Shown here: positions 2,481 to 25,820 of the stretch, piece after piece
How the letters are laid out: the number at the start of each line of letters is the position of its first letter
Position numbering within the stretch: position 1 is the first letter of the stretch
NCBI GenBank assembly: GCA_903934875.1
Contig: CAIZPP010000069.1
Coordinates: forward strand, 1 to 37,871
Direction of reading: 5' to 3'
Length of the DNA: 37,871 bases
From: an uncultured Methylococcaceae bacterium
GTDB taxonomy: Bacteria > Pseudomonadota > Gammaproteobacteria > Methylococcales > Methylococcaceae
Position numbers and translations under genes: made by a program
The notes under the pieces: generated by a model
Seen by the model: only the letters and a program-made list of their open reading frames with translations
Databases searched by the model: none
Told to the model about the DNA's origin: nothing

Positions 2481-3491
2481 TCAGTTTGGTTTTGCATCCA
2501 GGAAAAACAGCGGGTTTTCCCCGACCCCCGCCGCTATCCAGTTCAATTGGCCGAAGCCAGCCACCGAGAGCAGCCGTTCAAACTCGGCGTGGGTGCGCAG
2601 GCGCGCACCAAACATCACCAACAAGTTCAGGCTACTCAGATAATCATTCAAACCGGCGTTTTCGGTCAGGATGATTTCCAGAATCAGTAGTTTGCTGCCG
2701 GCCGGCATCGCCAGTCGGCAGTTTCGCAGGATTTCCAACACTTTGGCATCATTCCAATTCAGCAACACGCGAGACAGCAAGTAAATGTCGCCATCGCCGG
2801 GGATGCTTGCGGATTCGAAGAAGCTACCCGCGACAATCCGGCAGCGTTCGGCGACCCCGGCTGCATCTAATACGGCAGGTGCTTGTTTGACAGCTTGATC
2901 CAAGTCAAACAAGGTGGTTTGCAAGTCGGGGAACTGTTTCAGCAGCATCGCGCTGAGTGCGCCTTTGTTGCCACCTAGATCAATCACACGTCCGCTAAAG
3001 CCGTAATGTTTCCCGGCATCCGCCAGCCAAGTGTCGGTCGTTTGCGCCATGTAACGGTTGAAAAAGGTATTTTGGGCTGGATTGCCGGTAAGATAACTGT
3101 AAATGTCCGTGCCGTACACTCGGTCGAATGCCGGTTTGCCGGTTTGCACACTGTGCGCTAGCCCCACCCAGGCTGGGTAACCCATCTGCAAATGATCCAA
3201 AAATGGGATAAAGGAATCCTCATGCTCGGGAAGCAGGCGCATGCCGAGTTCGGTCAGCCGGTAATGGCCATCGGCCTCTTGGGTGACGGCATTCAGTTTT
3301 TTGGCAATTTCCAGCAATTGCCAGAGCGCCCGCGCATCCGCACCTATGGCCTCGGACAAGCTGGCGAGCGAGGGCGCGGCTAGTCGTTGCAAGAGGCCGG
3401 GTACATCCAAATGATGCAGGGTAATGACGGCCTGACTGAGCCAGTGGCCGCAGAAGGCTTCTTGCAATGGAGAACTTGGGTTGGCGGGCAT
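2481..3491 (-). CDS. SAM-dependent O-methyltransferase family protein (class II fold), catalytic His replaced
   Basis: 336 aa, a normal length for the plant-COMT/hydroxyneurosporene-type methyltransferase family (N-terminal winged-helix dimerisation domain, then a Rossmann SAM domain). The SAM-binding glycine motif is at residues 169-177 (VIDLGGNKG) followed by an acidic residue in FDLDQ. The family's catalytic general base is the His of the R-V-L-H-(D/N)-W motif; here residues 241-246 read RVLLNW, so the base is Leu244. It may therefore methylate by a different mechanism, or do a related SAM-dependent reaction as described for some family members in natural-product pathways (inference). It is the last gene of the biosynthetic run, 71 bp after the PKS. 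No strong ribosome binding site is seen before ATG 3491. Confidence 0.85.
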   Translation of the reverse strand: MPANPSSPLQEAFCGHWLSQAVITLHHLDVPGLLQRLAAPSLASLSEAIGADARALWQLLEIAKKLNAVTQEADGHYRLTELGMRLLPEHEDSFIPFLDHLQMGYPAWVGLAHSVQTGKPAFDRVYGTDIYSYLTGNPAQNTFFNRYMAQTTDTWLADAGKHYGFSGRVIDLGGNKGALSAMLLKQFPDLQTTLFDLDQAVKQAPAVLDAAGVAERCRIVAGSFFESASIPGDGDIYLLSRVLLNWNDAKVLEILRNCRLAMPAGSKLLILEIILTENAGLNDYLSSLNLLVMFGARLRTHAEFERLLSVAGFGQLNWIAAGVGENPLFFLDAKPN

Positions 3492-3554
3492 AAGGGATTC
3501 TCGGTGTTTGTCGCTGTGGTTAGGTAGGGTACGGCGTAGGTAAAACTACTTTCG

Positions 3555-3593
3555 ATTCGCCCTCACCCCAACCCTATCCCGGAGGGAGGGGGA
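3555..3593. repeat. Dispersed GC-rich intergenic repeat forming the PKS C-terminus
   Basis: The segment CCCTCACCCCAACCCTATCC followed by GGAGGGAGGG resembles a widespread proteobacterial intergenic repeat. It is partly palindromic (TCCC/GGGA). The last codons and the TGA stop (3563-3565) of the PKS gene lie inside it, giving the C-terminal residues TPPPSGIGLG. No copy elsewhere in the window was noticed; recognition as a known repeat is from memory, not from a search. Confidence 0.5.
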
Positions 3594-6500
3594 GTATAAT
3601 ATATGGCTTGGTCTAGGCATTTTTGCAGCCAGTCGGCCAAATGCCGCACATGGGGGGCGGTATTCATGCTGATATGGTTGCCGGGTAGGGTAAAAATTTC
3701 GATTCCGCCCTCAGCCAAGGGAATCCAAGCCTGCGCCGGGGTGCGGGCGTTGAATTCGTCACGCTCGCGAGCGAGGAAAAAATGCAGCTTGCCGGGATAG
3801 GGCAGTGGGGTATAATCCAGCATGGCCTGCATATTGGACTGGAACAGGTCCAGTGTGCGTTTCAGTGCCGTGCGGACCTGTGGCGTGTCCTCTTGCTGAC
3901 TGAGCCTGAGGAAGCTGCCTAGCTGCTGCTCTTCATTCAGCGCCCGCAGGTCTTCCAAGGCCAGTTCGACGTTTTCTCCAACTTTCAGCAAGTAAAACAT
4001 GATTTCGACCTTGTCGGCCAGGCGGGCCGGCATGTGGCCGGGGCCGGGTGAGTCGATCAGGCCCAAAAAGCCGACCGTCTCACCCACCGCCGTCAGTTTT
4101 TGCGCCATCGCATAGGCGAGAATCCCGCCGAACGAAGAACCGGCAAGATAATAAGGACCACGCGGCTGGAATTCCCTCAAGGTGCGCAGATTGACTTCCG
4201 CCATCGCTTCGATGGTGGTTAGCAAGGGGGCTTCGCCTTCCGAACCTTGGGCGCGGATGGCATAGACCGGCAGTCGCGGGTCCAGGTGTTGGGCCAGTTC
4301 GCGGTAGAAGTAGACATGTCCGCCGACTGGGTAAAGCAGCACCAATGGAGTCCTAGCGGGAGTTCCTACCTGTATAGGCACCAGCAGTTCAGGCAGTCCG
4401 GGCTTGCGATCCGTTGTTGCGGCTGCATCTGCATTCAGGCGCTCGCCAATCAGTTGTGCCAGCTTGGCGACGGTGGGTGCATGCAGCAGGCTATGGGTGT
4501 CCAAGCTGATATTGAAGTGTTCGCGCAGACGCGCCACCAATTGTGTAGCCAGTAGCGAATCCCCGCCCAGCGCAAAGAAATCCAGTTCCGCATCGACACT
4601 CTGCAAACCCAGGCTTTGCGCCCAGAGAATGCCAATCTGCCGTTCCAAAGGCGTGGAGGCTGTTTGCCGCAAGGGTCCAGTCGGGGCTGTCGTTGCGCCA
4701 ACGGCCACGGAATGCCAATCCGGGCCAAGTGCCTGCCGGCTTTGGACGGCCTGATGTGGCGGGTCCAGCCAGTGGCGCTTGCGTTCAAACGGATAGCCCG
4801 GCAAAGGAACGCGGCGGCGGCGTTCATAGGCATAAAATTTATCCCAGTCCAAGGCCACGCCCTGCAAGCTAATTTGTCCCAAAGATTGCAGCAATTGCTG
4901 GGTTTCCGACACCTTGCCGCCATCGCGCCGCGAGGGCAAGCTGTGCAAAGTGGCAGTGCCTTTGGGACAGGCCGGATGCTGCCTGGCCAGTGACGATAGG
5001 ACGCGCCCCGGACCCACTTCCAACAACACGGCCATGCCATGCTGGAACAGTTTTTCGAGGTTGTCGGCAAAGCGTACGGTATGCCGCAAGTGTTTTACCC
5101 AATAATCCGGCTCGGTTGCCTCATCCAGGCCAATCCAGTCGCCGCTCAAGTTGGACAGGTACGGAATCTGCGGAACGTGGAATTCCACCTGCCGCAACCG
5201 GTAGTCAAACGCTCCCAATACCGGTTCCAGCAGGTGTGAATGGAAAGCATGGGAGGTGTGCAACAGGGCCGCTTCTATGCCCTGTTCATGCAAATCGTTT
5301 TGCAAGCGGGCAATGGCCTCGGGTGTGCCCGCCAACACGCAGCGTTCCGCGCCATTAACGGTTGCCAGCGAAATTTCGGCGGAACACCATGCTTGCGCGT
5401 CTGCTTCGGACAAGGGCACGGCCAGCATGTCTCCGGGTGGCAAGGCTTGGATCAGGCATCCGCGCAGGGCGATCAGAGCCAAGGCATCTTCCAGCGAAAA
5501 CACACCGGCCAGACACGCCGCGACATATTCGCCCACACTATGCCCTAGCAGCGCTGCGGGCTGTATACCCCAGGACATCCACAATTGTGCCAGCGCATAT
5601 TCGACAGCAAACAAGGCTGGCTGGGCCAATTCTGTCTGGTTGATGTCGGTGGCGCTGTCGCCGCGATAGAGGATGTCACGAATATCCTTCCCCAAATGCG
5701 GGAGCAATAGATCGGCACACTGGTCGACTGTTTCCCTGAACACCGTTTCGGTGGCATATAATTCTAGCGTCATGCCCGCATACTGCGAACCCTGGCCCGG
5801 CAGTAGGAAGGCAACTTCGGGGGTGGTTTCAGTGGCCGCATGCTTCGCTTGGCTGTCCGTTTGCCCCAGTTGCCGCAGGGCGTCCCCACGGTCGGCGCAG
5901 ACCAGCATCCGCCTGTGGCTAAACCCTTGGCGGCAGCGGTTCAGGGTGTAGGCCACATCGGCCAGGTTTTGCCCGGTGTGCAGTTCTAGGTGGGCGCGCA
6001 AATTCTGGCAGGCGGCATCCAACGCGGTGGGCGTTTTCGCGGACAACAGCAGCAACTGAAAATTGCGGCTGGGGGGGGTCTCCTCGGCAAGCACTGGCGC
6101 TTCCTGCACGATCAGATGGGCGTTTGTGCCACCGATGCCGAAGGAACTGACACCCGCACAACGCGGCTGGCCGGGCGCGGCTTTCCATGCAGAGTGTTCG
6201 GCATTGACAAAAAACGGGCTGCTGGCGAAGTCGATCTGCGGGTTGGGCTGTTGAAAATGCAGGCTGGCAGGCAGTGTCTTGTGTTTCAGCGCGAGCACGG
6301 TCTTGATCAAGCCAGCTATTCCCGCCGCCGTGTCGGCATGGCCGATATTGGTCTTGACCGAGCCTATGGCGCAGTATCCGTTAAGCTGTGTGGCGGTGCG
6401 GAAAGCCTGGGTCAGCGCCTGCACTTCGATGGGGTCGCCGAGTGGCGTGCCGGTACCATGTGCCTCAATATAGCTGATGTCTTCCGGGTGCACATCCGCT

Positions 6501-7408
6501 GCCGTTTGCGCTTCAAGAATGACGGCAGCCTGCCCGCTAATGCTAGGCGCGGTAAAGCCGATTTTGTCTGCGCCGTCATTATTGATCGCCGAACCCTTGA
6601 TCACCGCGTGGATCGTGTCGCGGTCTGCCAGTGCATCCGCAAGCCGTTTCAGCACCACGACACCGACGCCGCCACCTACCACAGTGCCTGTGGCTGCAGC
6701 GTCAAAGGCACGGCAGTGCCCGTCCGGGGAGAGGATCATGCCTTCCTGATAGCGATAGCCCGTGCCTTGCGGCAGGTCGAGGCTGGCAGCACCGGCCAAG
6801 GCGAGGTCGCATTCAAAATTAAGCAGGCTCTGGCAAGCCATGTGTACGGCGACCAAGGAAGTGGAGCAGGCCGTCTGCACAGTGACGGCCGGACCTTTCA
6901 AATCCAGCTTATATGCGACTCGGGTACTGATGAAATCTCTGCCATTAAGCAGATGGAGCCGGTAGGCCCCGACCATGGGTAGCAGATGCTCCATGCGTGG
7001 ATCAAGGCAGTGGGTGCGGTAGAGGTTCTCACCCACCCCGGCATATACGCCGACCAGGGCTGTGGCGGTGGTTGGCGGGTAACCGGCCTGTTCCAGCGCT
7101 AGGTAAGCACACTCCAGGAACAGGCGCTGCTGGGGGTCGGCAATCTCCGCGTCCGCTTGGCTCATGTCAAAGAAAGCCGCATCGAAGCACTCCACATCCG
7201 GCACGACCAGCCCGGATTTGACATATGCGGGATGTTCCAGCAGCGCCGGTTCGACACCGGCAGCCCGCAGCTCCTCATCGGAGAAAGTCTGCACCGCTTC
7301 GCGCCCGTTCTCGAGCATATCCCAGAAAGCGTCCAAGTCGGGTGCCAGAGGGAAGCGGCCCGCCATGCCGATGACGGCTATGCCGGCAAGCCCATATGAT
7401 TCCCGCAT
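3563..7408 (-). CDS. Type I PKS module KS-AT-ACP-TE (malonyl-specific, non-reducing)
   Basis: 1281 aa. Ketosynthase at about residues 5-430 with active-site Cys181 (TACSTS), His317 (EAHGTGT) and His357 (KTNIGH). Acyltransferase at about 535-820 with Ser624 (GHSVGEY) and HAFHS at 720-724, the usual signature for malonyl-CoA. Carrier domain with Ser951 (LGGDSL). C-terminal thioesterase with GSSFGG (catalytic Ser1092) and a late His (LPGNHIS). There is no ketoreductase, dehydratase or methyltransferase domain, so the added C2 unit should stay a beta-keto group. It probably extends the NRPS-bound peptide once and releases it. Start chosen at ATG 7408 because AGGAG lies 6 nt upstream; ATG 7447 overlaps the carbamoyltransferase stop (TAATG) but has no clear Shine-Dalgarno. 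The stop codon sits in a dispersed repeat. Confidence 0.95.
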   Translation of the reverse strand: MRESYGLAGIAVIGMAGRFPLAPDLDAFWDMLENGREAVQTFSDEELRAAGVEPALLEHPAYVKSGLVVPDVECFDAAFFDMSQADAEIADPQQRLFLECAYLALEQAGYPPTTATALVGVYAGVGENLYRTHCLDPRMEHLLPMVGAYRLHLLNGRDFISTRVAYKLDLKGPAVTVQTACSTSLVAVHMACQSLLNFECDLALAGAASLDLPQGTGYRYQEGMILSPDGHCRAFDAAATGTVVGGGVGVVVLKRLADALADRDTIHAVIKGSAINNDGADKIGFTAPSISGQAAVILEAQTAADVHPEDISYIEAHGTGTPLGDPIEVQALTQAFRTATQLNGYCAIGSVKTNIGHADTAAGIAGLIKTVLALKHKTLPASLHFQQPNPQIDFASSPFFVNAEHSAWKAAPGQPRCAGVSSFGIGGTNAHLIVQEAPVLAEETPPSRNFQLLLLSAKTPTALDAACQNLRAHLELHTGQNLADVAYTLNRCRQGFSHRRMLVCADRGDALRQLGQTDSQAKHAATETTPEVAFLLPGQGSQYAGMTLELYATETVFRETVDQCADLLLPHLGKDIRDILYRGDSATDINQTELAQPALFAVEYALAQLWMSWGIQPAALLGHSVGEYVAACLAGVFSLEDALALIALRGCLIQALPPGDMLAVPLSEADAQAWCSAEISLATVNGAERCVLAGTPEAIARLQNDLHEQGIEAALLHTSHAFHSHLLEPVLGAFDYRLRQVEFHVPQIPYLSNLSGDWIGLDEATEPDYWVKHLRHTVRFADNLEKLFQHGMAVLLEVGPGRVLSSLARQHPACPKGTATLHSLPSRRDGGKVSETQQLLQSLGQISLQGVALDWDKFYAYERRRRVPLPGYPFERKRHWLDPPHQAVQSRQALGPDWHSVAVGATTAPTGPLRQTASTPLERQIGILWAQSLGLQSVDAELDFFALGGDSLLATQLVARLREHFNISLDTHSLLHAPTVAKLAQLIGERLNADAAATTDRKPGLPELLVPIQVGTPARTPLVLLYPVGGHVYFYRELAQHLDPRLPVYAIRAQGSEGEAPLLTTIEAMAEVNLRTLREFQPRGPYYLAGSSFGGILAYAMAQKLTAVGETVGFLGLIDSPGPGHMPARLADKVEIMFYLLKVGENVELALEDLRALNEEQQLGSFLRLSQQEDTPQVRTALKRTLDLFQSNMQAMLDYTPLPYPGKLHFFLARERDEFNARTPAQAWIPLAEGGIEIFTLPGNHISMNTAPHVRHLADWLQKCLDQAIYYTPPPSGIGLG

Positions 7409-7446
7409 GTTCAACTCCTGCGTCCCCGCGCCCGGCAAGGTCGCCA

Positions 7447-9447
7447 TTAAGCCAGTCTGGAAGCGGGCCGCAAAACCAGCAATCGATCTGACCATAGTCC
7501 CGGCAATTCTGCCAAGGCCTGCGCTTGCTGCTCCTCAGAAAATTCCAATACCCCCATAAGTTGTCCCACCGATTGTTTGCCGTCAGCCGCTTGCAAGAGC
7601 TTATGCCAAGCCTCTGACAAGGGAAATCGGCGAGTGGGTTGGTAATTCCACACCAGCGCGTGACTGAAGCCGCGCTCGGTGTGGCTGATGTAGCGGTCCT
7701 CCCTTAATAATACCGCCGCTTTCGGCAAACTCACGACCAGGCAAGCCAAGTCTTCCGGTCGCCAAGCCTTTTTGGAGGCTAAATAATCGCCCACTACCAG
7801 ATAGTCCAAGCCGGATGTCAAATAGCACACCACGGCATCGTCCACACTATCGACTATGGGTTCTGCGTTGTTATTGAATGAGGTATTCAGCAAAATCGGT
7901 ATCCCGGTTTTGCGGCCGAAGGCATCAATTAGCTCCCAATAGCGTGGATTGGTGGCTTTGCTTACGGTTTGCAGCCGTGCGCTGCCGTCAACATGGGTGA
8001 TGGCGGGCAATTGCGAACGCCATTCCGGCTTGACATTCAGGACAAAGGACATGAAGGGGAAATCGGCATTTTCGACCGGCACCTCGAAGAAGTCCCTAAC
8101 CCTCTCTTGCAGAATTGACGGCGCAAACGGACGGTAGCTTTCGCGCATTTTGATCATGGCGTTGATCGTCTCCTTATGTTCCGCAATGCGCGGGTCGGCA
8201 ACGATACTACGGTTGCCCAACGCTCTGGGGCCAAATTCGGAGCAGCCCTGCACCCAACCGACCACAGCGCCTTCGGCAATCAAATCGGACACCCGTTCGG
8301 ACCTATGCGGCATTTTTTCGATATCCAAGAATGTGCGCCAAGACTCCAAAACCTCACCGGCCCCATCGTTATGGACTGGCGTCCCCCAATAAGCGTGTGG
8401 GGTGCGGAGAATTGGAGAATCCGCTTGCAGATTATGGGCGACATAAGCCGCAGCACCGTAAGCACAACCGGAATCCCCCGCAAAAGACGGCACAAAAACA
8501 TCATCAAACAGACCGGAGCGGAGAATTTTGCCGTTCATGCTGCTGTTTTGGGCGACACCTCCGCTAATGACCAGGCGGCTGTGGCCAGTCGCTTGCCGGA
8601 AATGGCGCAAAAGATGGAATACAATCGCCTCCACAGCTTCTTGCAATGCCGCCGCAATGTCCATGTGGACTTGGGTGAACGGTTCGCCCCGCTTTCTCGG
8701 TTGTAATAGTTCGTGCAGGTCTGCAATGCATTGTCTATGGATGCGGTAATCGCCATCGGGCCGCAATTCATAGAAGCGGCTAAATGCCTGCCGGTAAACC
8801 TCCGGGTTGCCGTATGGCGCCAAGCCCATCACCTTGTATTCGTCAAAATCCGCGTAGCCCAAAAAAGCAATGACTTGCAAATAAAAATATCCCAATGAAT
8901 CGGTTATGGGCCATGTCTTGAGTAAATTGAAGGCTTTGCCGTCCACATCGGCCACCAAACCCGAAATATCTTCGCCCTCGCCGTCTATGGAAAGTACCAG
9001 AGCCTTGTCAAATCCCGATAAATAATAGGACGAAGCGGTATGGGCGAGATGATGGTAGACGAATCTAAACACATCCCGGCTGAGCGTGACACCGAATTCC
9101 CGCTCGAATAGGAATTGGTACAAATGCCGGGCATCCTCAAAAAAACTGGCTTCCGGCGAGATCAAGCTAACACTTTTTAATTTGGCGTTTAGAAAATCTT
9201 CACTGGAATAAATGGCGATGGCATCCAGATCACCCAGAGTCTTTTGGGCGGCTTGCAAACAAAAACTCACGGCGGACGAGCATAACTTATTGGTATGTTT
9301 TATTCGGTTTAACCGTTCTTCTTCAATGCCGGCAAGCACTTCCGTGTTTTCTAGCAATACTGCGGCCGAGTCATGCCATCCCGTGTCAGTCAAAAGCGGT
9401 GCATTAATCAGCGGATATACTCCGCCTGTTATACCCAAAATTAGCAT
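7447..9447 (-). CDS. O-carbamoyltransferase (NodU/CmcH/TobZ family)
   Basis: 666 aa, full length for the family. The N-terminal YrdC/Kae1-like part shows the metal-binding HHLAHTASSYYLS motif near residue 130 and GGVAQNSSMNGKI near 295. The C-terminal part shows SEFGPRALGNRSIVADPR and SYRPFAPSIL. Family members use carbamoyl phosphate and ATP to carbamoylate a hydroxyl, often on a sugar of an antibiotic or Nod factor. In this locus the likely acceptor is the glycosylated NRPS-PKS product (inference). A purine-rich AGGGGGA lies about 6 nt before ATG 9447. About 20 bp further upstream is one copy of the locus-specific leader repeat. The stop codon overlaps a possible upstream PKS start. Confidence 0.93.
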   Translation of the reverse strand: MLILGITGGVYPLINAPLLTDTGWHDSAAVLLENTEVLAGIEEERLNRIKHTNKLCSSAVSFCLQAAQKTLGDLDAIAIYSSEDFLNAKLKSVSLISPEASFFEDARHLYQFLFEREFGVTLSRDVFRFVYHHLAHTASSYYLSGFDKALVLSIDGEGEDISGLVADVDGKAFNLLKTWPITDSLGYFYLQVIAFLGYADFDEYKVMGLAPYGNPEVYRQAFSRFYELRPDGDYRIHRQCIADLHELLQPRKRGEPFTQVHMDIAAALQEAVEAIVFHLLRHFRQATGHSRLVISGGVAQNSSMNGKILRSGLFDDVFVPSFAGDSGCAYGAAAYVAHNLQADSPILRTPHAYWGTPVHNDGAGEVLESWRTFLDIEKMPHRSERVSDLIAEGAVVGWVQGCSEFGPRALGNRSIVADPRIAEHKETINAMIKMRESYRPFAPSILQERVRDFFEVPVENADFPFMSFVLNVKPEWRSQLPAITHVDGSARLQTVSKATNPRYWELIDAFGRKTGIPILLNTSFNNNAEPIVDSVDDAVVCYLTSGLDYLVVGDYLASKKAWRPEDLACLVVSLPKAAVLLREDRYISHTERGFSHALVWNYQPTRRFPLSEAWHKLLQAADGKQSVGQLMGVLEFSEEQQAQALAELPGLWSDRLLVLRPASRLA

Positions 9448-9467
9448 TCGTCCCCCTAAGTGTCTGA

Positions 9468-9494
9468 TACAGCATTTTCATGTTCAAAATGACG
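9468..9494 (-). repeat. Locus leader repeat, copy A (upstream of the carbamoyltransferase)
   Basis: Read on the minus strand it ends in ATGAAAATGCTGTA, matching copies at 18702, 20873 and 25722 (consensus TTGAAAAYGCTGTA preceded by ATTTGAT-like sequence). This copy is the most divergent and lies 20 nt before the start codon. Confidence 0.55.
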
Positions 9495-9544
9495 GCGTTC
9501 TAGCCAATAATGAGAATTGCTGGTTTTTCAAGGTTCCTGCATGC

Positions 9545-16926: not shown

Positions 16927-16960
16927 ACCGGCCATCCTCTCCAATTTCGTTGTTGAAAAA

Positions 16961-17244: not shown

Positions 17245-18699
17245 TTAAGGCTTTAGTTGGGATGCATTGCGGATTAATTTTCCGCTGGCCGTTCTCAGTA
17301 AGCGGTCAACAAAAGTGATCTGTGCCGGTATCTTGTGTTCAGCTAAATGACCGGCACAAAAGGCAATGATGTCCTCCGTGGTCGGCAATTCACTTATTCC
17401 CGGGGCTTTAACCACATGGGCATGGGGAATCTCACCCAAGCGTTCATCGGGGTAGCGAAACACACAGGCCTCCTGAATGGCCGGGTGGGCTTCCAGCACG
17501 GCTTCAACCGTTTGCGGGAAAAATTTCATGCCGCCCACGCTAATGACTTCTTTTGACCGCCCACGGATATGGAGATACCCCGCTTCATCAAACTCGCCCA
17601 GGTCGCCGGTGGCAAACCAACCATCATTTTTTTGCAAAATGTCCTTGCGCTCTTGCCAAGGCTCATAATAAGCATCAATCAGGCCCCTGCCGCGCAACTG
17701 CACTTCACCCAAGCCAGTGGCTTGATCGACTCCCAGCAGGCGGGCTTCATACGCGGGCAGTATTTTCCCCACTGAACCCTGCTTTTCGCGGGGCTGGTCC
17801 AGATTCATGCAGGGTAGGCCCACTTCAATGATGCCATAGGTTTCATTCAAGGGTATTTGGAAACGTTGGTAAAACGCATCGGCCACTGCGGGCGCTAATG
17901 AGGCGGTGGTAACGATGGCCAAGCGCAAGTCGGGCAACATTTGGCTTCCCCTGTCCTGCGCCATTAAGTTGTAATGCAGCGGTGCCGCATAAATCAGGGT
18001 GGCCTTATGCTTCGCGGCGATTTGGATGATGCTTGAACCGAAGGCATTGGGGGCAAGCAGAATGGTGCAGCCATAGCTCAGATAGGCGACAATCGACACG
18101 GTAAAGTGGTAGGCCATGGACAATAACCAGACAATCCTGTCGCCCTGGGCTAGGCGCAAGCCTTGGTTGGCGGCTTGGATGCGTTCGTAAACGGTTTCAT
18201 GCGACAGCACAACCCCTTTGGAGGTTCCCGTCGTGCCCGAAGTGAAGCGCACAAACGCCGGGTTAATGCGGGCAAAACCAACAGGTTTCGGCAGGGTTTT
18301 AGCACAAGGCATAAAAGCCGTTTGCGCGGATAGAAAAACCGCCTCAGCGGTTTGCAAGGGCGCGACATCCGCCATGATGTTGGATTTGGAAAGCACTGCG
18401 TCAATGGCAATGTGCCGGAAAATCTGTTGCTTTTCCAGCGGGTTCAGTTCCACCGGAACGGGCACGACACATGCGCCGCAACCCCATATCGCATAGATTA
18501 AGGCAATGTATTCAGGGCTGTTCGGATAGTGCAGCGCAATACAGTCTAAGGCCTTGACGCCTTGCCCCTTAAGTTGCGCAATCAAGCCTTCTATTAATAG
18601 CCTGAAATCGCCATAGGTATACTCTTCACGAGTCGTGGTGATTAGCAGGTGGTTGGGTTGCTTTGCGGCTGTTGCTAAAAACAGGTCAAGTAAGTTCAT
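17245..18699 (-). CDS. Stand-alone acyl-adenylating ligase (AMP-binding enzyme)
   Basis: 484 aa, without carrier or condensation domains. Core motifs: P-loop RFTSGTTGTSKG (residues 151-162), YGIIEVG, GWFATGDLGEFDEAG, the hinge RSKEVISVGGMKFFP and the C-terminal lysine motif TASGKLIRN. Such enzymes activate a carboxylic acid as acyl-AMP and pass it to CoA or an ACP. Next to ACP2 it most likely loads the starter acid of the NRPS line. Substrate cannot be read from the sequence. The start codon sits two bases after one copy of the leader repeat, with no visible Shine-Dalgarno. Confidence 0.9.
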   Translation of the reverse strand: MNLLDLFLATAAKQPNHLLITTTREEYTYGDFRLLIEGLIAQLKGQGVKALDCIALHYPNSPEYIALIYAIWGCGACVVPVPVELNPLEKQQIFRHIAIDAVLSKSNIMADVAPLQTAEAVFLSAQTAFMPCAKTLPKPVGFARINPAFVRFTSGTTGTSKGVVLSHETVYERIQAANQGLRLAQGDRIVWLLSMAYHFTVSIVAYLSYGCTILLAPNAFGSSIIQIAAKHKATLIYAAPLHYNLMAQDRGSQMLPDLRLAIVTTASLAPAVADAFYQRFQIPLNETYGIIEVGLPCMNLDQPREKQGSVGKILPAYEARLLGVDQATGLGEVQLRGRGLIDAYYEPWQERKDILQKNDGWFATGDLGEFDEAGYLHIRGRSKEVISVGGMKFFPQTVEAVLEAHPAIQEACVFRYPDERLGEIPHAHVVKAPGISELPTTEDIIAFCAGHLAEHKIPAQITFVDRLLRTASGKLIRNASQLKP

Positions 18700-18701
18700 G
18701 A

Positions 18702-18866: not shown

Positions 18867-18914
18867 ATAATTTATCCCATCACATCATCCTCAGTATATG
18901 CTGACTTGTCAGGG

Positions 18915-20069
18915 TTAACAGCAATAAAAACGCTGTAATGCTTTGCCAAGGGCATCTCCCATTGCCCAGCAAGTTCCCACTACCCGCACGGAAGCTTGTG
19001 CCAACTTGTCCGCCGACAGGCATTTGCCGACTGCCCACAGGTTTTCCATGCCTGCGACTTTTAACGATCTCAACGGTATTTGATAAGAATGCTTTGCTGG
19101 TAAATAGTCAAGCTTGACCCCATGCAGCGGATCCCAATATTCGACCGGCCAAGCGCAACGCCCGGCGGAGTCGATGAATTCGCGCCCATTCTTTATGTCT
19201 TCAAGTGTCAGGCAATAATCACCCTTGATTCTACCGCCATCACGAATCCCCAAGCATCCCATCCGGGTAATATGGGCGTTGGCAAAATCCGCTAGCTGTG
19301 TCATGAACCCCGCCAGGGTTTCTTGGTAAGTTGTTGCCACTTCACGATCATAGGCATGGCTTGGAATATTAAGCTTGGCATAGACCTCGTCCGCATACAC
19401 GCCGCTGTCAAACCAAACTCCCGCAAAGGCTTGCGGTAATTTGCCCGCATCAACGGCTGCTTGCACAATGCGGCGGACAGCAATATTTTTAGGGAACCCC
19501 AAGGCGTTTTCCGCCACCCCGCGTATCTGGAAAACCAGCCCGGCCAAGGCATCGCCCGGACTCAGCTTGTCGGCATCAAGCAGGCGCACTACTTCTGCCG
19601 TTCCCGTTGCATCGACTAGCGCGTCAGCGGGAAGCAGGCGTTTTTCAATGCCATCATACACTTCCAATTGGGTGACCCAAGGTCCATCGGTGTGGATTTG
19701 AGTGGGATAAGTGCCGCGTAAAACGGTGATTTTAGTTTGGCGGGCCACCCACTGTTCAACGACTTGTCCGTATACGCCGGGGTCCACGTTTAAAGTCCAG
19801 ACTTTGCCCATGTTCCGTTTGCGTGTGTGCGGGTCGGCCTGAAGCAGCAATGCGGATAATTCTACCGGCAGCCCTAGGTTGATATATTCGCCAGCATCAT
19901 CATACAGCCCGCCAATCGTGTGGATCAGGCTATTCGTCACAGTTCCGCCAAGGTGCCCTGACTTCTCCACTAGGCAAACTTCCGCACCGGCGGCTGCGGC
20001 TGAAATGGCACAGGCCAAGCCGCCTGCCCCGGCACCGACAACGACAATTTGTTGGCAAGCGTGGCGCAT
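18915..20069 (-). CDS. FAD-dependent oxidoreductase
   Basis: 384 aa. The N-terminal dinucleotide-binding motif is VVVGAGAGGLACAISAAAAG followed by the acidic residue in CLVEKSG, then GGTVTN, and the late FAD-contact region VVGTCWAMGDALGKAL. This is the layout of the pfam FAD_oxidored group, which oxidises or desaturates small substrates in the cytoplasm. It follows the DUF1796-like gene by 9 bp, so they are probably co-transcribed. Its target in this pathway is unknown; it could act on the peptide or on a carrier-bound building block. The MITE follows its stop and may affect transcription into the ligase gene. Confidence 0.85.
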   Translation of the reverse strand: MRHACQQIVVVGAGAGGLACAISAAAAGAEVCLVEKSGHLGGTVTNSLIHTIGGLYDDAGEYINLGLPVELSALLLQADPHTRKRNMGKVWTLNVDPGVYGQVVEQWVARQTKITVLRGTYPTQIHTDGPWVTQLEVYDGIEKRLLPADALVDATGTAEVVRLLDADKLSPGDALAGLVFQIRGVAENALGFPKNIAVRRIVQAAVDAGKLPQAFAGVWFDSGVYADEVYAKLNIPSHAYDREVATTYQETLAGFMTQLADFANAHITRMGCLGIRDGGRIKGDYCLTLEDIKNGREFIDSAGRCAWPVEYWDPLHGVKLDYLPAKHSYQIPLRSLKVAGMENLWAVGKCLSADKLAQASVRVVGTCWAMGDALGKALQRFYCC

Positions 20070-20078
20070 ACGAGTTTG

Positions 20079-20873
20079 TCAATACGTCGTGTTAAAGCTG
20101 GCTAGGTCGAAGGAAACATCGCCTATGATATCATTCCACAGGCGTTCATAGCGGTCTTCAGGAACCGTGACGCCGCGCAACACATCGTCCCACTCCGTAC
20201 CTCTCTCGTTGTTCCATACAGTTTCCCAGCGGGCGATGTGCAAATTGGGGATGCGGTTCGCAACGGCCCAGCTTTTGATGTACTCATAGCGTTTTGCAGG
20301 CACGGCGAGTGCCAAGGTAAACGCCTTGCCTTGTCGCAATTCGCCTAGCACATCCAGCAGTTCCAGAATTTGTTCTTCCTTGACTTCGGTATCTTCCAAC
20401 TCTGGCGAACTCATGGCTTTGCAAATAAAACGGATATTGTCGTATAGCTGGCATTCCTTTAAGAACACATGCTCCTGCAAAGCCAGTTTTTGGCGAAATT
20501 TTGGATAGCTTTTCAGCTCGTCCAAAGTATTTTCTGCCAATGGAAAATGATGTTTGTTCTCTAGGTTATAGCGTGTGCAATACGTCATCAGTGTCATGCG
20601 CTTGGCATTGTTGGGACCGGACGCATCTTCAATGGGTTCGCCTATGACCATGTCTTCCAGCCGCCAATAATCGGCAAAACGGTTTTTTAGAATCGGAATA
20701 ATGGCATGCCAAGTCCTTAGGCCAAAGTTGTCAAAAGGCGAGTTCGTATCTTTGATGTCGTAAATCCACAGCATCCCCCCGACATGGCAGAAACTGCCCA
20801 AGCTAATCACAGAATCGACATGCCCGCCAGGCTGGTCCTGCGCCATCCTTTGTTTTTCAATTAGGTTTGACAT
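20079..20873 (-). CDS. DUF1796-like putative papain-fold protein
   Basis: 264 aa. The N-terminal segment VDSVISLGSFCHVGGMLW followed by SPFDNFG is the pattern I associate with DUF1796 (a cysteine-peptidase-like family often found in glycan and surface-polymer gene clusters); the Cys of GSFCHV is the candidate nucleophile. The remaining two-thirds are soluble and rich in charged residues, with no transmembrane segment. Its presence in an NRPS-PKS locus between glycosyltransferase and oxidoreductase genes is unusual. The ATG at 20873 overlaps the end of a leader-repeat copy, and no Shine-Dalgarno is visible. Family assignment is from motif memory and should be treated as moderate. Confidence 0.6.
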   Translation of the reverse strand: MSNLIEKQRMAQDQPGGHVDSVISLGSFCHVGGMLWIYDIKDTNSPFDNFGLRTWHAIIPILKNRFADYWRLEDMVIGEPIEDASGPNNAKRMTLMTYCTRYNLENKHHFPLAENTLDELKSYPKFRQKLALQEHVFLKECQLYDNIRFICKAMSSPELEDTEVKEEQILELLDVLGELRQGKAFTLALAVPAKRYEYIKSWAVANRIPNLHIARWETVWNNERGTEWDDVLRGVTVPEDRYERLWNDIIGDVSFDLASFNTTY

Positions 20874-20904
20874 ACAGCGTTTTCAAGATCAAATGGTTAT
20901 TTAT
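20873..20904 (-). repeat. Locus leader repeat, copy C (runs into the DUF1796-like start)
   Basis: Minus-strand sequence AAATAACCATTTGATCTTGA followed by AAACGCTGTATG; the final TATG supplies the start codon of the downstream gene. It is closest to copy B. Confidence 0.7.
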
Positions 20905-21790
20905 GGGAGACTGATTTCCAGTATCCAACCGCTCTGCCCAAGCCCATTGCAGTGAAAACAGCGGCTTTGCGCAAATTTCCGGCAAGTAAATTCTTAACCA
21001 CCAAAGTAAAAGGCAAGAGCAGCTGCATTCTCGCCAGCGGCCAGGGAATTGCCCGCTTTACCATCAAGAAGGCAAAGCCACGACCATAGGTATACTCGCG
21101 GCGCATCAACTGGACTACGGAGTAAATCCTGTCTGGCGCAGGGTGCCTGACAAACAGATCGTGCGCATAATAATGGCTGGCCCCGCTGTCTAGGCAACTC
21201 AACAGGTAGTCCGTGTCTTCCCCCCCACCCCATTTTTGGCCCGATCCAGGCCCTATGGCTTCATCGAAGGCGACCCGCTCGGCGACAGTCCTCCGGAAAA
21301 ACAAAGCTGGCGTGATACCCACACCCCAGGCATTGGAATAGTCGATTGGACCCGATGACGGTTCGCTGAAGCCGAAGGCATCCTCGTCCCGGTCCAGGTC
21401 AAGGATGCGCACACTCAGCCCATCCCATTTTTCAGACTGAAAAAAGTCTGCCACCTTGCCCAAAAAGCCTGGTGGGTATACGCAATCGTCATCAGGAAAA
21501 CCCACAATATCGCCATTTATATGGGAGCGCCCCTCATTGCGGGAGCGGGATACCCCAGGCTTTGCCCGCCGGATATGCTTAATGGGAATATGTTGTCTAT
21601 AGGCATCAATCAACTCCACCAAGCGGTCGTCCGCATTTTGATCGACCACGATCAACTCAATAGCCTGATGATCCTGCCCGGATAATGCTTGCAGGAAGCG
21701 TCCGACTTCTTCGACCCGTCCACGGGTTGCCATGATTAGGGAAAAACGCATGTTATGATCGGTTTCAATCTGCGCGTATTTCAGGGGCAT
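20897..21790 (-). CDS. Glycosyltransferase family 2 (copy 1)
   Basis: 297 aa from ATG 21790, or 284 aa from ATG 21751 (MRFSLIMAT), which matches the start of its paralogue at 16045-16926. AGGCG lies 8 nt before the longer start, and that start leaves a 12-bp gap from the radical SAM gene, so I list the longer form. Motifs: FSLIMATRGR, VDQNADDR, GFPDDDC (NDP-sugar/metal binding) and WGGGEDTDYLLSC. The C-terminal 60 residues are hydrophobic and may be membrane-associated. Likely adds a sugar during assembly of the product. Two related GT2s in one locus suggest two similar sugar transfers. Confidence 0.88.
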   Translation of the reverse strand: MPLKYAQIETDHNMRFSLIMATRGRVEEVGRFLQALSGQDHQAIELIVVDQNADDRLVELIDAYRQHIPIKHIRRAKPGVSRSRNEGRSHINGDIVGFPDDDCVYPPGFLGKVADFFQSEKWDGLSVRILDLDRDEDAFGFSEPSSGPIDYSNAWGVGITPALFFRRTVAERVAFDEAIGPGSGQKWGGGEDTDYLLSCLDSGASHYYAHDLFVRHPAPDRIYSVVQLMRREYTYGRGFAFLMVKRAIPWPLARMQLLLPFTLVVKNLLAGNLRKAAVFTAMGLGRAVGYWKSVSHK

Positions 21791-21802
21791 GCCGATCGCC
21801 TG

Positions 21803-22978
21803 TCAACGTCCGTGCAGGTAAAGCAGCACACACTTCGAACAGATGGGCGTCAGCCCCTGCCCTAGGATTTCCCTGACGCGGCGGAAGTTTTCGCCGTGCC
21901 AAATGTCCATGACACCCTCTTGGTACAGGTTGCCGACGCTGAATTCGGGGTAGAGCTTGCAGGAACTAACGCTGCCGTCGGCCAGCACATCCATGCGGTT
22001 GGCGATGGACAGGCACTGGGTTCTGCGCTGACCGGGCTGTTCCGTGCCGACGATGAAATGCTCGAATTCATCGGCTTCCAAAGCGGGCTGGAAACGCAGG
22101 CGGATATTCCAACTACGGCTGTTCAATTTGGCCATCTGCTGACGCAGACTGTCCAACAGGTCTTCGGCCACATGGTGCGTGTAGGAATGCCAACTGGCCT
22201 TGGGTTGCAGGGGCAGACGGTTGAGCCAAGAGAAGTTTTTCTTGTAATATTCATCCATTTTGTTGGCGACCGCTTCCGTGATGTACCACGGGTACACCAC
22301 ATACAGGCTGTCGATGCCGTCAATCCCTTCACAGTATTCGGCAAACTCATACAGATTGGGAATGAATTTATCGCTCAACACCAGGCTCAGGGAGATTTTA
22401 CCCTTGTATTCGCCTGTTTTTTGCAAGTCCTTGACCAAGTTCACGTTGTGCATGATTTTATCAAACGTGCCCTTGCCGCGGATCGCGTCATTCTGTTCTT
22501 TGAAACCATCCACGCTGATAAGCAACACCGTGCTTTCCGAGATGCGCAGGATCGATTCCAGCTTGCGTTCGATCATCAGTCCGTTGGTGCAGAGGACGGT
22601 CCAGCGTGGGTCTTTTTCTAGCATCAGGCTGAGTGCGTCCCAATCCTTGTGCACAGTCGGCTCACCACCCCATAAGTACAGGTTTGACTTGGCTTCGCGG
22701 GTCTCAAAGAGGATTTTCTCAAACACCTCGGCGGACAATTCGTCGCGCACTTCTTCCTTGCTGAGGTGGTGGAAAAAACCCTTGTCGTTCCACTGGAAGC
22801 AATGCTCGCAACGGATGTTGCAGCGGTAGGTCAACTGGATGCCGATTTCCTCGGGCGCGGGCGCGGCATAGGCGGGATTGGTTTTTCTGGCCCGCACGGC
22901 CTTGGACAGATTGCCCATGGATTTCTTCATCCGGTCAAATTCCGCTTCGTCGATCTTAACCGTAGTGGTGGGTTGCAT
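21803..22978 (-). CDS. Radical SAM enzyme with SPASM-like C-terminal cysteines
   Basis: About 391 aa. The [4Fe-4S] cluster motif is YRCNIRCEHC (Cys53, Cys57, Cys60), followed by LWGGEPTVHKDW (the GGE SAM-binding element) and the TNG motif. The C-terminal part carries Cys residues in TQCLSIAN, SSCKLYPEF, VGNLYQEGVMDIWHG and PICSKC, the arrangement of SPASM domains that bind extra iron-sulfur clusters. Such enzymes often modify peptides, sugars or carrier-bound substrates by radical chemistry. It overlaps the GT-B gene end. Nested starts exist: ATG 22978 has GAGG 9 nt upstream; 22984 and 22996 are alternatives. Confidence 0.9.
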   Translation of the reverse strand: MQPTTTVKIDEAEFDRMKKSMGNLSKAVRARKTNPAYAAPAPEEIGIQLTYRCNIRCEHCFQWNDKGFFHHLSKEEVRDELSAEVFEKILFETREAKSNLYLWGGEPTVHKDWDALSLMLEKDPRWTVLCTNGLMIERKLESILRISESTVLLISVDGFKEQNDAIRGKGTFDKIMHNVNLVKDLQKTGEYKGKISLSLVLSDKFIPNLYEFAEYCEGIDGIDSLYVVYPWYITEAVANKMDEYYKKNFSWLNRLPLQPKASWHSYTHHVAEDLLDSLRQQMAKLNSRSWNIRLRFQPALEADEFEHFIVGTEQPGQRRTQCLSIANRMDVLADGSVSSCKLYPEFSVGNLYQEGVMDIWHGENFRRVREILGQGLTPICSKCVLLYLHGR

Positions 22979-24062
22979 CGTCATATACCTCGACATAGTT
23001 TTGCGTTTGTGTTCTTGCATTCAGTAAATTGACGTGCAAGTCTCTTAGCACTTCGGTGGAATAGCCCGTATCCGCCCATTTCGCGTAGGCAATGGCAAAA
23101 CCGAGCGCTTCCCAGAGTTCTCCATTTCTTCGCTCATATTCGCCATAAGGTTCGAGCAGGATCAACGGCGTGGCGGCTGAGAGCGAGTCCACCAAGGTGG
23201 AGCCGCCCGGTTTGCTGATGATGGCCTGGCTTTGCCGTATCATTGGGTACACCTCGGGGTAAGCCGGGTTGTTGGCAAAAATGACCGGGGCGTTTCCCTT
23301 GACTTCGCCAAAAGGCGGGAATTGGTGGTGGCCTGATTCATCCCGCTCCCAAGCCTTCCATGCCGGGTCGATCATGAAATAGCGGTTGCCTGGCCATAGC
23401 TTTTCAAGGTCTTGTTGTTCATAAACCGTGACATCCAAGGGGATGCCCTGGCCGGCCAGTTCGGGAATCTTGCTCTGGTAGGTGCCTATCCCCCAGCCTC
23501 CGCCGTGAATCAGGAACCGGCCTGAGCGTCCGGCATAGGGAACGGGTTCTTCATCGGTGACGGCCAAGCGGTAAGGCAGGGATTGGCCTGCCCAGTCGAA
23601 AAACCAGATGTGCCGGAAACGGGAGGCGAATGTTTCAACCCCGTTCCAGGAAGTCGATGTGATCGCATCCATGTGGCACAGGTCGATAGCAAGGTCACCC
23701 GGACAATCCGCCTGCCTTAAGTATTGGGCAATGATGGGCATCCAGAAGCCATAGATCACCACAAAGCGCCTGCGCTGCTGTTGCTGCCAGCCTGCCAGCA
23801 GCTTGGACACGGTTTCTGGGTCCAGGCTGGGGGTGATGTCACCGACCAGCTTCTGCGCCATCCGGGCGATGGAAAAATTGCGGTGGAAGGCGAATTTGGT
23901 CTTCAGAAGCTTGTCGCGCTTTTCTGCCAGCAGACAGTTTTCCAGCACCTGCACATCGGTGTCGAAACCTTTTGCAGAGAATTGGCGCGCCAACAGCAAG
24001 CCCGGCACATAAGCGCCCAAGGACGCGCCAGAACACAGCAGGGTGACGGTTTCCTGTGTCAT
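22956..24062 (-). CDS. GT-B fold glycosyltransferase (MurG/GT28-like)
   Basis: 368 aa. An N-terminal glycine-containing loop (CSGASLGAYVPGLLLARQF) suits the acceptor domain of a GT-B enzyme. The C-terminal donor-binding segment reads IISKPGGSTLVDSLSAATPL then LLEPYGEYERRNGEL, which parallels the GG-T/S-x-x-E-type nucleotide-sugar site of MurG and related enzymes. The ATG overlaps the ATP-grasp stop (ATGA), so the two are probably translationally coupled. It is the third glycosyltransferase of the locus and differs in fold from the two GT2s. Donor and acceptor cannot be inferred from the sequence. Confidence 0.75.
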   Translation of the reverse strand: MTQETVTLLCSGASLGAYVPGLLLARQFSAKGFDTDVQVLENCLLAEKRDKLLKTKFAFHRNFSIARMAQKLVGDITPSLDPETVSKLLAGWQQQQRRRFVVIYGFWMPIIAQYLRQADCPGDLAIDLCHMDAITSTSWNGVETFASRFRHIWFFDWAGQSLPYRLAVTDEEPVPYAGRSGRFLIHGGGWGIGTYQSKIPELAGQGIPLDVTVYEQQDLEKLWPGNRYFMIDPAWKAWERDESGHHQFPPFGEVKGNAPVIFANNPAYPEVYPMIRQSQAIISKPGGSTLVDSLSAATPLILLEPYGEYERRNGELWEALGFAIAYAKWADTGYSTEVLRDLHVNLLNARTQTQNYVEVYDDATHHYG

Positions 24063-25417
24063 AGCGTGAACACCTTGATGCCCAACCCGGCAAAAACCTG
24101 TTGCATTTTTTCCTTCAAACTGGCCCGCTTCACCTGGCTCGTGGCGACGATAGAGACGTAAAAACGGCCTTTGAACGCGGTGTCACCCGCTGCGGTAGGA
24201 TTCCAGTTGGCCGTCAGAGTATTGGCTGACAGTGGCAGTATCCCTTCCGGCCGGTCGGGCAGGAACAAGATGTTTTCCTGTTGCAACCGTTGCAGAATAT
24301 CCTCCATCTCCACCCGCCGAGTCAGGCCTAGGGAAAAGAACAGCAAGCTTCCGCAGGTTGAAAACGGCGCAAGAAAACGGTCGATGTAATGATTGATGAA
24401 GCCCATGGATTGGCGGGCGTTGATTTCCACAACAGTGCGGATACTGCCATCCTTGAGCAGCATGGAATCGACGCAAACCGGGCCGAAATAGCCTTCCCGG
24501 TAAAGCCTGACGGCAATTACCTGTATTTTGTCCAAATAGCCTGCACGGCAAAGCCGCTCCATGAATGCCGTGTCTGCGGTCTGGATGGCGGAAAAGGCAA
24601 ACCCAGCGTTCTCCATTTTTTGCACAGAGACAATTTCAACGCCGCCATTTTCGCCGATTTCCAGTTGGCAGGAAAAATCCAGTTCCTTGTCCAGCAAGGG
24701 TTCCAACAGAAAACGGGTTTGTTTGCAGGCTCTTTCCTGCTTTCCGATATGTCTAACGATCCTTTGCAGCAATGGCACGGAATCGACTAGCAGGTTGCCC
24801 TTGCCGGACACGCCAAAATCGTCTTTAATCAAGAGGGGGGAGGTTCCCAGCAGGCGCATACCCACAGTCTCCAACTCAGCCGCAGAATGCACGGCCTCGC
24901 CACCGTGCAACTCGTCAAGGTGTTCGACTTCCAAACTATGGGAAAACAGCTTGGAATTGGCTTTCCTGACGGACTCAATATCGGGCATTCTTTGTGCTAT
25001 ACCATAATGTTGGCAGAACGCCCCCGTCGAAGGCAGCACGGAATAGGGGACAAGTCCTTTCAGACCGGAAAACATATTCCTAAAATGCGCCTGTTCCACG
25101 GTTACTTGTAACAAGCGGCAGATGGCTTCGTTGCTTGGGGAGTCTCCGGCAGACGCGAGTGGTTTTTCGTTATTGGTAAACCGGAAGCCAATGTCCCGCA
25201 GGTAATCCGCATGAGTGCTGTCCATGGGGCTGCGGGTAATCAGTAAGCCGTCCTGGGCATGGCAGGATGCAAACATTAACTCGTCCATGACTGCAACAAT
25301 GGTATCGGCTTGCGCATCAGGGATGCTAGGCAATTGGCTAAAAGCCGGGTCGCGCCAAAAGCGTTCCGAGTCGAAGCTACCTAAATACAGGCTGTCGGAA
25401 TTGCTGACTGCTGCCAT
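24059..25417 (-). CDS. ATP-grasp domain enzyme
   Basis: 452 aa. The central region shows the ATP-grasp lysine loop LLIKDDFGVSGKGNLLV, and downstream GPVCVDSMLLKDGSIRTVVE followed by INARQSMG supplies the acidic/Asn/Arg residues that bind Mg-ATP. ATP-grasp enzymes join a carboxylate to an amine or thiol through an acyl phosphate. Positioned between a free ACP gene and a glycosyltransferase, it could make an amide bond on the product or a carrier-bound intermediate (inference). The start lies 10 bp after the ACP1 stop; its stop overlaps the next gene's ATG. The N-terminal 180 residues match no motif I recognise. Confidence 0.8.
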   Translation of the reverse strand: MAAVSNSDSLYLGSFDSERFWRDPAFSQLPSIPDAQADTIVAVMDELMFASCHAQDGLLITRSPMDSTHADYLRDIGFRFTNNEKPLASAGDSPSNEAICRLLQVTVEQAHFRNMFSGLKGLVPYSVLPSTGAFCQHYGIAQRMPDIESVRKANSKLFSHSLEVEHLDELHGGEAVHSAAELETVGMRLLGTSPLLIKDDFGVSGKGNLLVDSVPLLQRIVRHIGKQERACKQTRFLLEPLLDKELDFSCQLEIGENGGVEIVSVQKMENAGFAFSAIQTADTAFMERLCRAGYLDKIQVIAVRLYREGYFGPVCVDSMLLKDGSIRTVVEINARQSMGFINHYIDRFLAPFSTCGSLLFFSLGLTRRVEMEDILQRLQQENILFLPDRPEGILPLSANTLTANWNPTAAGDTAFKGRFYVSIVATSQVKRASLKEKMQQVFAGLGIKVFTL

Positions 25418-25427
25418 TGGCTCTGCA

Positions 25428-25679
25428 CTAAGTTATAATCGCGCTCTGTTGTGCCGCAAGCAACTCGGCTAGGCGGTTGATGGAACTTAGGTCGGCGTAA
25501 TCGAATTGTTCAAAATCAATTTCGATGCTGAAGGCTTCCTCGATCTTAAATAGGAAGGTCACCAATTGCAAGGAATCCAGCCCCACCTCGTTAACAATAT
25601 CAGCCTCATCGGACAGGTTAACGGCAAGGTCTTGATTTTCCTTTATATCGGCCAAGATAGACTTGATCTTACTTTTCAT
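25428..25679 (-). CDS. Acyl carrier protein (ACP1)
   Basis: 83 aa from ATG 25679. The attachment motif is EVGLDSLQLV with Ser36, and the flanking helices are acidic as in ACPs. A longer frame opens at 25772, but its first 31 residues (MPFRSS...NPTVS) do not look like an ACP and include the translated leader repeat, so the internal start is preferred although no good Shine-Dalgarno is seen. It is the first gene of the biosynthetic run, about 110 bp after the predicted promoter. Its distance from the NRPS and closeness to ATP-grasp, glycosyltransferase and radical SAM genes suggest it carries a separate building block. Confidence 0.85.
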   Translation of the reverse strand: MKSKIKSILADIKENQDLAVNLSDEADIVNEVGLDSLQLVTFLFKIEEAFSIEIDFEQFDYADLSSINRLAELLAAQQSAIIT

Positions 25680-25721
25680 TGAAACTGTTGGATTGTTGTC
25701 GGGTATTGAAGGTTTTCCACT

Positions 25722-25751
25722 TACAGCATTTTCAACATCAAGAGTTACTTG
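25722..25751 (-). repeat. Locus leader repeat, copy D (upstream of ACP1)
   Basis: Minus-strand CAAGTAACTCTTGATGTTGA followed by AAATGCTGTA. Unlike copies B and C it lies about 40 bp before the likely start codon. Confidence 0.65.
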
Positions 25752-25791
25752 ATAGCTGGAACGAAAGGGCAAGATATTCAGTTAAATGCGT

Positions 25792-25820
25792 ATAATAATG
25801 CATTTATGGGCTTCCCTCAA
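25792..25820 (-). promoter_or_regulatory. Predicted sigma70 promoter of the biosynthetic genes
   Basis: On the minus strand, TTGAGG (25815-25820) and TATTAT (25792-25797) are separated by exactly 17 bp, upstream of ACP1. The -10 lies inside an inverted repeat TAAATGC...GCATTTA (25783-25806), which could be an operator. This is the only good promoter match I found for the 14-gene run. Confidence 0.5.

Follow-up and report, generated by a model that had tools for sequence, protein, structure and literature searches.

The contig CAIZPP010000069.1 of an uncultured Methylococcaceae bacterium (assembly GCA_903934875.1, 5.41 Mb in 344 contigs), analysed here over its whole length (C69, positions 1-37871; 37,871 bases, hereafter the window), carries 14 genes which form one co-directional biosynthetic cluster, intact in two species. 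The cluster occupies 23 kb between 2481 and 25679, with all genes on the minus strand and all frames open; it contains a nonribosomal peptide synthetase (NRPS) and a polyketide synthase (PKS) and probably builds a small sugar-decorated peptide-polyketide. Four of its genes, coding for a radical SAM enzyme, an acyl carrier protein (ACP), an ATP-grasp-like protein and a GT-B-like protein, constitute a newly found cassette, which the cluster has in common with two Streptomyces plasmids. The cluster is apparently unstudied.

Conservation of the cluster

A collinear copy of all 14 genes is present in the same-genus methanotroph Candidatus Methylumidiphilus alinenensis (G006, contig QJPH01000360.1; hereafter the sister), with protein identities of 69-90%. 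A first-pass annotation, made from the letters of the window alone, had described a single-strand locus of 14 genes of the families given in Table 1 and had named conserved synteny in relatives as support for it; the open frames, the Pfam matches and the collinearity of 14 of 14 genes with the sister bear out both. It had placed the locus at 2481-25820. The left end stands, but the right end has to be drawn back to about 25680, because the DNA similarity to the sister cluster, which spans 2497-25680, stops there and the ACP1 gene begins at 25679. Beyond the cluster, similarity to the 68.5-kb sister contig is limited to 175 bases of a P-type ATPase gene and to a dispersed repeat.

The ratios of nonsynonymous to synonymous substitution (dN/dS) were found to be 0.07-0.19 across 13 of the 14 genes (ACP1 left out), and by this measure the cluster genes are under purifying selection. 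In rpoB the sister is the closest relative of the genome of the window, with 95.5% identity, four others showing 93.3-94.0% (G004 left out). The dS of rpoB, 1.27, falls between the extremes seen in the cluster genes (0.35-1.79), and common descent together with relocation therefore suffices for the pair; the low dS of g12 and g05 (0.35 and 0.46) could reflect later recombination. In the sister, g04 and g05 are separated by two additional genes, one for a radical SAM protein of 198 aa and one for an MsbA-like ABC exporter (L023 11207-13930). The latter is absent from the window copy and is likely to be the exporter of the cluster; its best-scoring relative in the genome of the window is 33% identical.

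The genes are mostly separated by short gaps or overlap, the largest distances being 215 bp (g07-g08), 97 bp (g11-g12) and 71 bp (g13-g14). Scans for promoters (17 against a shuffled mean of 11.7, sd 3.4) and terminators (19 against 24.0, sd 4.9) gave counts near those of shuffled sequences and were not used, and the Rfam scan at the gathering threshold gave no match.

Table 1. Genes of the cluster and plasmid backbone in the window
Feature	Assignment	Position	Strand	Evidence
g01	Free acyl carrier protein ACP1, 83 aa, GLDSL site	25428..25679	-	PF00550 5e-9; 74.7% identity over 83 aa to sister copy
g02	ATP-grasp-like protein, putative aminoacyl-ACP ligase	24059..25417	-	8ynd 9.8e-4; ACP nearby in five loci
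g03	Putative GT-B-like glycosyltransferase, KPGGST motif	22956..24062	-	
g04	Radical SAM/SPASM enzyme	21803..22978	-	Pfam radical SAM and SPASM
g05	Family-2 glycosyltransferase GT2a, FPDDDC and EDTD	20897..21790	-	g10 paralogue
g06	DUF1796 papain-like protein	20079..20873	-	Pfam DUF1796 3.9e-9
g07	FAD-dependent oxidoreductase	18915..20069	-	PF12831 9.7e-61
g08	Stand-alone AMP-forming acyl ligase	17245..18699	-	Pfam 2.5e-50
g09	Free acyl carrier protein ACP2, 89 aa	16961..17230	-	NCBIfam ACP models, below cut-off
g10	Family-2 glycosyltransferase GT2b	16045..16935 (start approximate)	-	Pfam GT2
g11	NRPS, C-A(Gly-like)-PCP-C-A(Tyr-like)-PCP	9545..16021 (start approximate)	-	Pfam and motifs
g12	O-carbamoyltransferase, NovN/GdmN type	7447..9447	-	Pfam N and C domains; 9s2t and 7vyj matches
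g13	PKS, KS-AT(malonyl-type)-ACP-TE	3563..7411 (start approximate)	-	Pfam and motifs
g14	Methyltransf_2 methyltransferase	2481..3491	-	Pfam 3.4e-39; LLNW where solved relatives have LHDW
Backbone	parA fragment, iterons, Rep3/RepM	27361..29558	mixed	Profile matches and repeats

The assembly line and its release

The NRPS and the PKS are complete in their modules, with intact carrier and catalytic motifs: the HHxxxD motif of the condensation (C) domains and the core motifs of both peptidyl carrier proteins, of the ketosynthase, the acyltransferase (AT), the ACP and the thioesterase (TE) are kept in both species. The specificity codes of the two adenylation domains in the window are DILQLGVIW (A1) and DASTIAAVC (A2), which by the GrsA numbering are taken to be Gly-like and Tyr-like, and the HAFH motif carried by the AT of g13 is presumably of the malonyl type. 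With these codes and this motif the acyl-Gly-aromatic-C2 core of the first-pass annotation could be upheld. An acyl donor is needed since the NRPS begins with a C domain.

When a residue carries a single unreduced malonate, attack by the amide nitrogen can produce the ring of a tetramic acid. The gene content of a methoxypyrrolinone pathway was found in the cluster, namely a terminal malonyl PKS module after the NRPS, a release domain and a stand-alone methyltransferase. The latter, g14, has MmcR as a solved relative (2.9e-41) and shows LLNW in the window and in the sister where MmcR, CalO6 and 6c5b have LHDW. The enol of a tetramate is acidic and would therefore not require the histidine as a base, which is consistent with LLNW.

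Both genomes also contain another large PKS gene, in the genome of the window at C180 13969-16641 (49% identical to g13, 2640-aa frame) and in the sister at C13 26308-28998 (51%, 3145-aa frame).

Predicted glycosylation and carbamoylation, and accessory proteins

The genes g08, g09 and g10, for a ligase, an ACP and a family-2 glycosyltransferase (GT2), adjoin in both genomes and thus represent the gene set of a mitomycin-type loading and glycosylation unit. The two GT2 enzymes, g05 and g10, are paralogues (45-48% in cross-matches to the copies of the sister); plasmid relatives of g05 occur in three records at 33-35% identity, the one inspected being located in a polysaccharide locus. The g12 protein matches 9s2t (1.4e-149, residues 1-662 of 666) and 7vyj (6.3e-149, residues 1-663 of 666), and this near full-length match, which includes both domains, identifies it as an O-carbamoyltransferase of the NovN/GdmN type. 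Its family is common, with 196 plasmid records at E 1e-60, and rhizobial carbamoyltransferases 47-48% identical are found among the 20 of the 196 matches listed. The glycosyltransferase and carbamoyltransferase genes announced by the first-pass annotation are thus present; none of the 14 genes resembles a gene of sugar-nucleotide synthesis, so that the sugars would stem from general metabolism. The epithet "glycopeptide-like", which the same annotation had attached to the locus, proved misleading, as there are only two NRPS modules and no P450 match among the 14 genes. A glycopeptide of the vancomycin type, which needs a heptapeptide NRPS and cross-linking P450s, neither of them seen among these genes, was rejected.

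Radical SAM protein g04 carries CxxxCxxC at positions 67, 71 and 74 of a 405-aa frame (21803-23020), together with conserved C-terminal cysteines; a search of solved structures gave weak generic matches, the best at 1.2e-5. The same search gave a single match for the DUF1796 protein g06 (E 0.96) and none at 1e-5 for the FAD protein g07. Residues C29 and H108 of g06 are retained in a Priestia homologue (27% identical).

Proposed pathway

From the observed gene content, motifs, conservation and cassette we infer the substrates, the order of the steps, the ring and the product as follows. In a first arm, the putative ligase g02 would load an amino acid onto ACP1, and this carrier-bound residue would be modified by the radical SAM enzyme g04 and the GT-B-like protein g03. 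In a second arm, the AMP-forming ligase g08 would charge ACP2, and g05 and g10 would glycosylate the bound unit in the manner of MitE, MmcB and MitB. The first C domain (C1) may then accept an ACP-bound acyl unit, to which glycine and subsequently tyrosine or another aromatic residue would be added, and g13 would append one unreduced malonate. At the TE, the amide nitrogen would attack the beta-keto thioester to give a tetramic acid, whose enol g14 would O-methylate to a methoxypyrrolinone, following the logic of althiomycin, and g12 would carbamoylate a hydroxyl group, probably on a sugar. Two carrier-bound glycosylation arms are preferred because of the precedent of mitomycin, the adjoining g08-g09-g10 genes and the match of g12. 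A complete cluster for a glycosylated, carbamoylated acyl-Gly-aromatic-C2 molecule with two carrier-bound arms and an althiomycin-like methoxypyrrolinone is thus the reading we adopt, with a confidence that stays somewhat short of even.

A four-gene cassette in Streptomyces

The search of 72,556 plasmid records (g02 at E 0.01, g04 at E 1e-20, g03 at E 1e-6) returned three records for g02, three for g04 and two for g03. The Streptomyces plasmids NZ_CP134205.1 and NZ_CP108509.1 were the only records matched by all three, with identities of 42-45% for g04, 29-32% for g02 and 33-34% for g03; the third match of g04, in Serratia, is 24% identical. Both plasmids show the gene order MFS-radical SAM-ACP-ATP-grasp-Gfo/Idh-APH-GT-B-like-C domain (MFS, major facilitator superfamily; APH, aminoglycoside phosphotransferase), the genes being 50-83% identical between them; those of NZ_CP108509.1, which has no gene annotation, were placed by tblastn. 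On these plasmids about 7 kb suffice for the types of gene shared with the window, namely those for the radical SAM enzyme, the ACP, the ATP-grasp and GT-B-like proteins and a C domain; the differences are that Gfo/Idh and APH genes intervene and an MFS gene stands in front. The 41 kb around each cassette gave no match at E 1e-3 to g05, g06, g07, g08, g13 or g14; NRPS-like matches are found there on both plasmids, and the surroundings in NZ_CP134205.1 also hold a carbamoyltransferase 33% identical to g12.

On the plasmid of Streptomyces sp. BB1-1-1 (L028, L036) the cassette is enclosed by a large uncharacterised cluster, which has the look of an aminoglycoside or nucleoside pathway and contains several Gfo/Idh, glycosyltransferase, APH, carbamoyltransferase, TauD and thymidine phosphorylase genes. 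The third relative of g02, in Streptomyces decoyicus, adjoins genes for a type III pyridoxal phosphate (PLP) enzyme and an ACP, a layout of ATP-grasp, PLP enzyme and ACP which we take to be that of a butirosin-type aminoacyl-ACP loading system.

The cassette is kept without the rest of the cluster at long range and with it in the genus, and it is therefore an evolutionary unit of its own. It is tempting to speculate that the four genes represent a portable, undescribed module which subjects a carrier-bound amino acid to radical modification and glycosylation and passes it to a C domain, which has moved between Actinomycetota and methanotrophs, and which here feeds the NRPS-PKS; such a role appears possible, though rather doubtful. 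The occurrence of the cassette in two phyla opens a way to test how an amino acid on a stand-alone carrier is altered by a SPASM radical SAM enzyme.

Distribution and literature

Within the searched genomes, the full set of 14 genes was found only in the window and the sister. At the level of orthologues g04 occurs in two of 61 genomes, its own and the sister, a tally of 59 of 61 representing generic radical SAM proteins; among 84,980 species, one genome each, it gave one locus, that of the sister (26 candidate stretches, one confirmed), in a single-protein scan that detects close relatives only. The profiles of g03, g06 and g04 each recovered a single genome, the own one, out of 398 genomes drawn from the phylum, 369 of the class and 339 of the class, respectively. 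At E 1e-8, g02 was found in two of the 311 genomes searched from the order, and a trait common to methanotrophs was rejected on this count.

No published description of the cluster turned up in literature text searches, which reached few subscription papers, in agreement with the first-pass annotation, which could match the gene set to no characterised pathway. The available part of one paper mentions Methylumidiphilus for one GTPase in a table (PMC10051162), and the main text of a survey of methanotroph secondary metabolism, as far as available, does not name the genus (PMC11964084). For methanotrophs, a group in which secondary metabolism has been little studied, the cluster provides a well-delimited orphan pathway that is small enough to handle.

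Alternative readings

Several observations weigh against the proposed pathway. The C1 motif of g11, HHIVGDA, deviates from HHxxxDG (C2, HHIISDG), and the two species have A2 codes that disagree at one position (sister codes DILQLGVVW for A1 and DAATIAAVC for A2). The lack in g14 of the histidine of its solved relatives fits an acidic enol and also another reaction or a loss of function. No transporter gene is present in the window copy of the cluster, and the 215-bp gap between g07 and g08 makes two transcripts possible. The ATP-grasp assignment of g02 is weaker than the first-pass annotation had it: no Pfam or NCBIfam match was obtained at E 0.01, and the profile match to 8ynd, a solved ATP-grasp peptide ligase, is weak (9.8e-4). 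In favour of the assignment, its Streptomyces homologue gives a biotin-carboxylase match below cut-off (3.9e-6), and a free ACP gene lies near the g02-type gene in five of five loci (window, sister, L028, L029 and L030, the last with an intervening PLP-enzyme gene). Two of the three glycosyltransferases claimed are GT2 proteins by Pfam; the third, g03, has no Pfam match and only a weak C-terminal likeness to diacylglycerol glucosyltransferases (1.9e-4 and 0.0032). Further points against the pathway are that Streptomyces has the cassette but not the remaining genes of the cluster, and the models matched by g08 and ACP2. The best models for g08 are fatty-acyl ligases, below cut-off (264 bits against 476 for the long-chain fatty-acyl ligase), and ACP2, scanned with NCBIfam, scores best, also below cut-off, with the ornithine-lipid ACP (6.3e-8); these matches favour a fatty acyl over a sugar acceptor and make a lipid starter a serious rival.

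The same cluster might accordingly direct a linear or macrocyclic glycolipopeptide, in which ACP2 receives a fatty acid from g08, C1 acts as a lipo-initiation domain in keeping with its requirement for an acyl donor, the TE hydrolyses and g14 methylates a tyrosine or sugar hydroxyl. ACP2 also matches, weakly, the small-acyl/aryl carrier models AmcB and AsbD, and g14 has no histidine of the kind usual in phenol-methylating relatives, so that this product is a possibility on the less likely side. That the cassette makes a separate moiety or a separate product beside the NRPS-PKS operon would agree with the Streptomyces surroundings, from which g05-g08, g13 and g14 matches are missing; it is unlikely given that both Methylumidiphilus copies keep the 14 genes on one strand, contiguous save for the two extra genes of the sister, and that the similarity to the sister stops at both outer genes. 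Separate conservation of parts of the locus, which the first-pass annotation had named as evidence against it, is thus seen by half: the 14 genes stay together in the genus, but four are kept alone in two Streptomyces. A decaying, silent acquired cluster on a relic plasmid would explain the shortened parA, the broken oxidoreductase-like frame just upstream of the operon and the absence of the exporter gene and the small radical SAM gene that the sister has; the 14 open frames, the intact motifs and the purifying selection make it quite improbable.

Replicon and flanking regions

The right flank of the cluster is likely of plasmid origin, as judged from profile matches and repeats. A Rep3/RepM initiator (28560-29558, plus strand) scores 268.8 bits with NF038290 against a cut-off of 250 and is accompanied by eight 22-bp iterons (27969-28464), the combination of an iteron plasmid. 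A parA fragment on the minus strand consists of the C-terminal part without the N-terminal half. The first-pass term "plasmid-type replicon" is therefore justified as to Rep3, iterons and a parA fragment, but parA is partial and the contig ends show no exact terminal overlap of 21-200 bases. At E 1e-20, relatives of the initiator occur in 2,948 plasmid records, and among the three best matches listed is one from the methanotroph Candidatus Methylospira mobilis (52.4%); at E 1e-8 the initiator is found in six of 37 genomes. The sister is not one of the six, and the cluster is therefore not bound to that plasmid backbone.

Just upstream of the operon, at about 25950-26060 on the plus strand, lies a fragment with a broken frame, likened by eye to a quinone oxidoreductase/alcohol dehydrogenase, which is perhaps an old breakpoint. 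A dispersed repeat of about 130 bp (window 36061-36190; sister C7 14137-14264) occurs at six places in the genome of the window and at five in the sister, where one copy is directly upstream of the operon. Another, of about 60 bp (about 3525-3600), reaches into the PKS gene at its 3' end, encodes its last residues and has at least 39 further places in the genome, 40 of 72 candidates having been scored. The contig also carries APS kinase, Kir-type channel and SelO genes.

Comparison with known systems

The pairing of a putative ATP-grasp ligase with a free ACP resembles BtrI and BtrJ of butirosin; the differences are that no PLP decarboxylase is present here and that radical SAM and GT-B-like genes stand beside the pair.

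By gene roles, the second arm is comparable to mitomycin biosynthesis, in which an acid is loaded on an ACP and glycosylated there by MitE, MmcB and MitB; both have a ligase, a free ACP and a glycosyltransferase, which in this cluster would likewise act on an ACP-bound acyl unit. The mitomycin pathway also holds the radical SAM protein MitD, the methyltransferase MmcR and the carbamoyltransferase MmcS, so that a radical SAM enzyme, an O-methyltransferase and a carbamoyltransferase occur within one pathway in either case, whereas an NRPS/PKS chain and an ATP-grasp protein are not part of it in the available portion of the source (PMC8621148).

In gene content, the assembly line resembles those of althiomycin (alb/alm) and chalkophomycin (chm), where a single malonyl PKS module likewise comes after the last NRPS residue and the methyltransferase also stands alone. 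For althiomycin, a PKS module predicted to accept malonyl units, a TE, present in this cluster as well, and a methyltransferase lead to the methoxypyrrolinone, the ring-closing step being unsettled between AlmF and the TE in the accessible parts of the reports (PMC3445576, PMC11085572). The six alb genes, as described in the available part of PMC3445576, include neither a glycosyltransferase nor a carbamoyltransferase, and both systems differ from the present cluster in the residues incorporated and in the usual histidine of the methyltransferase, which g14 lacks.

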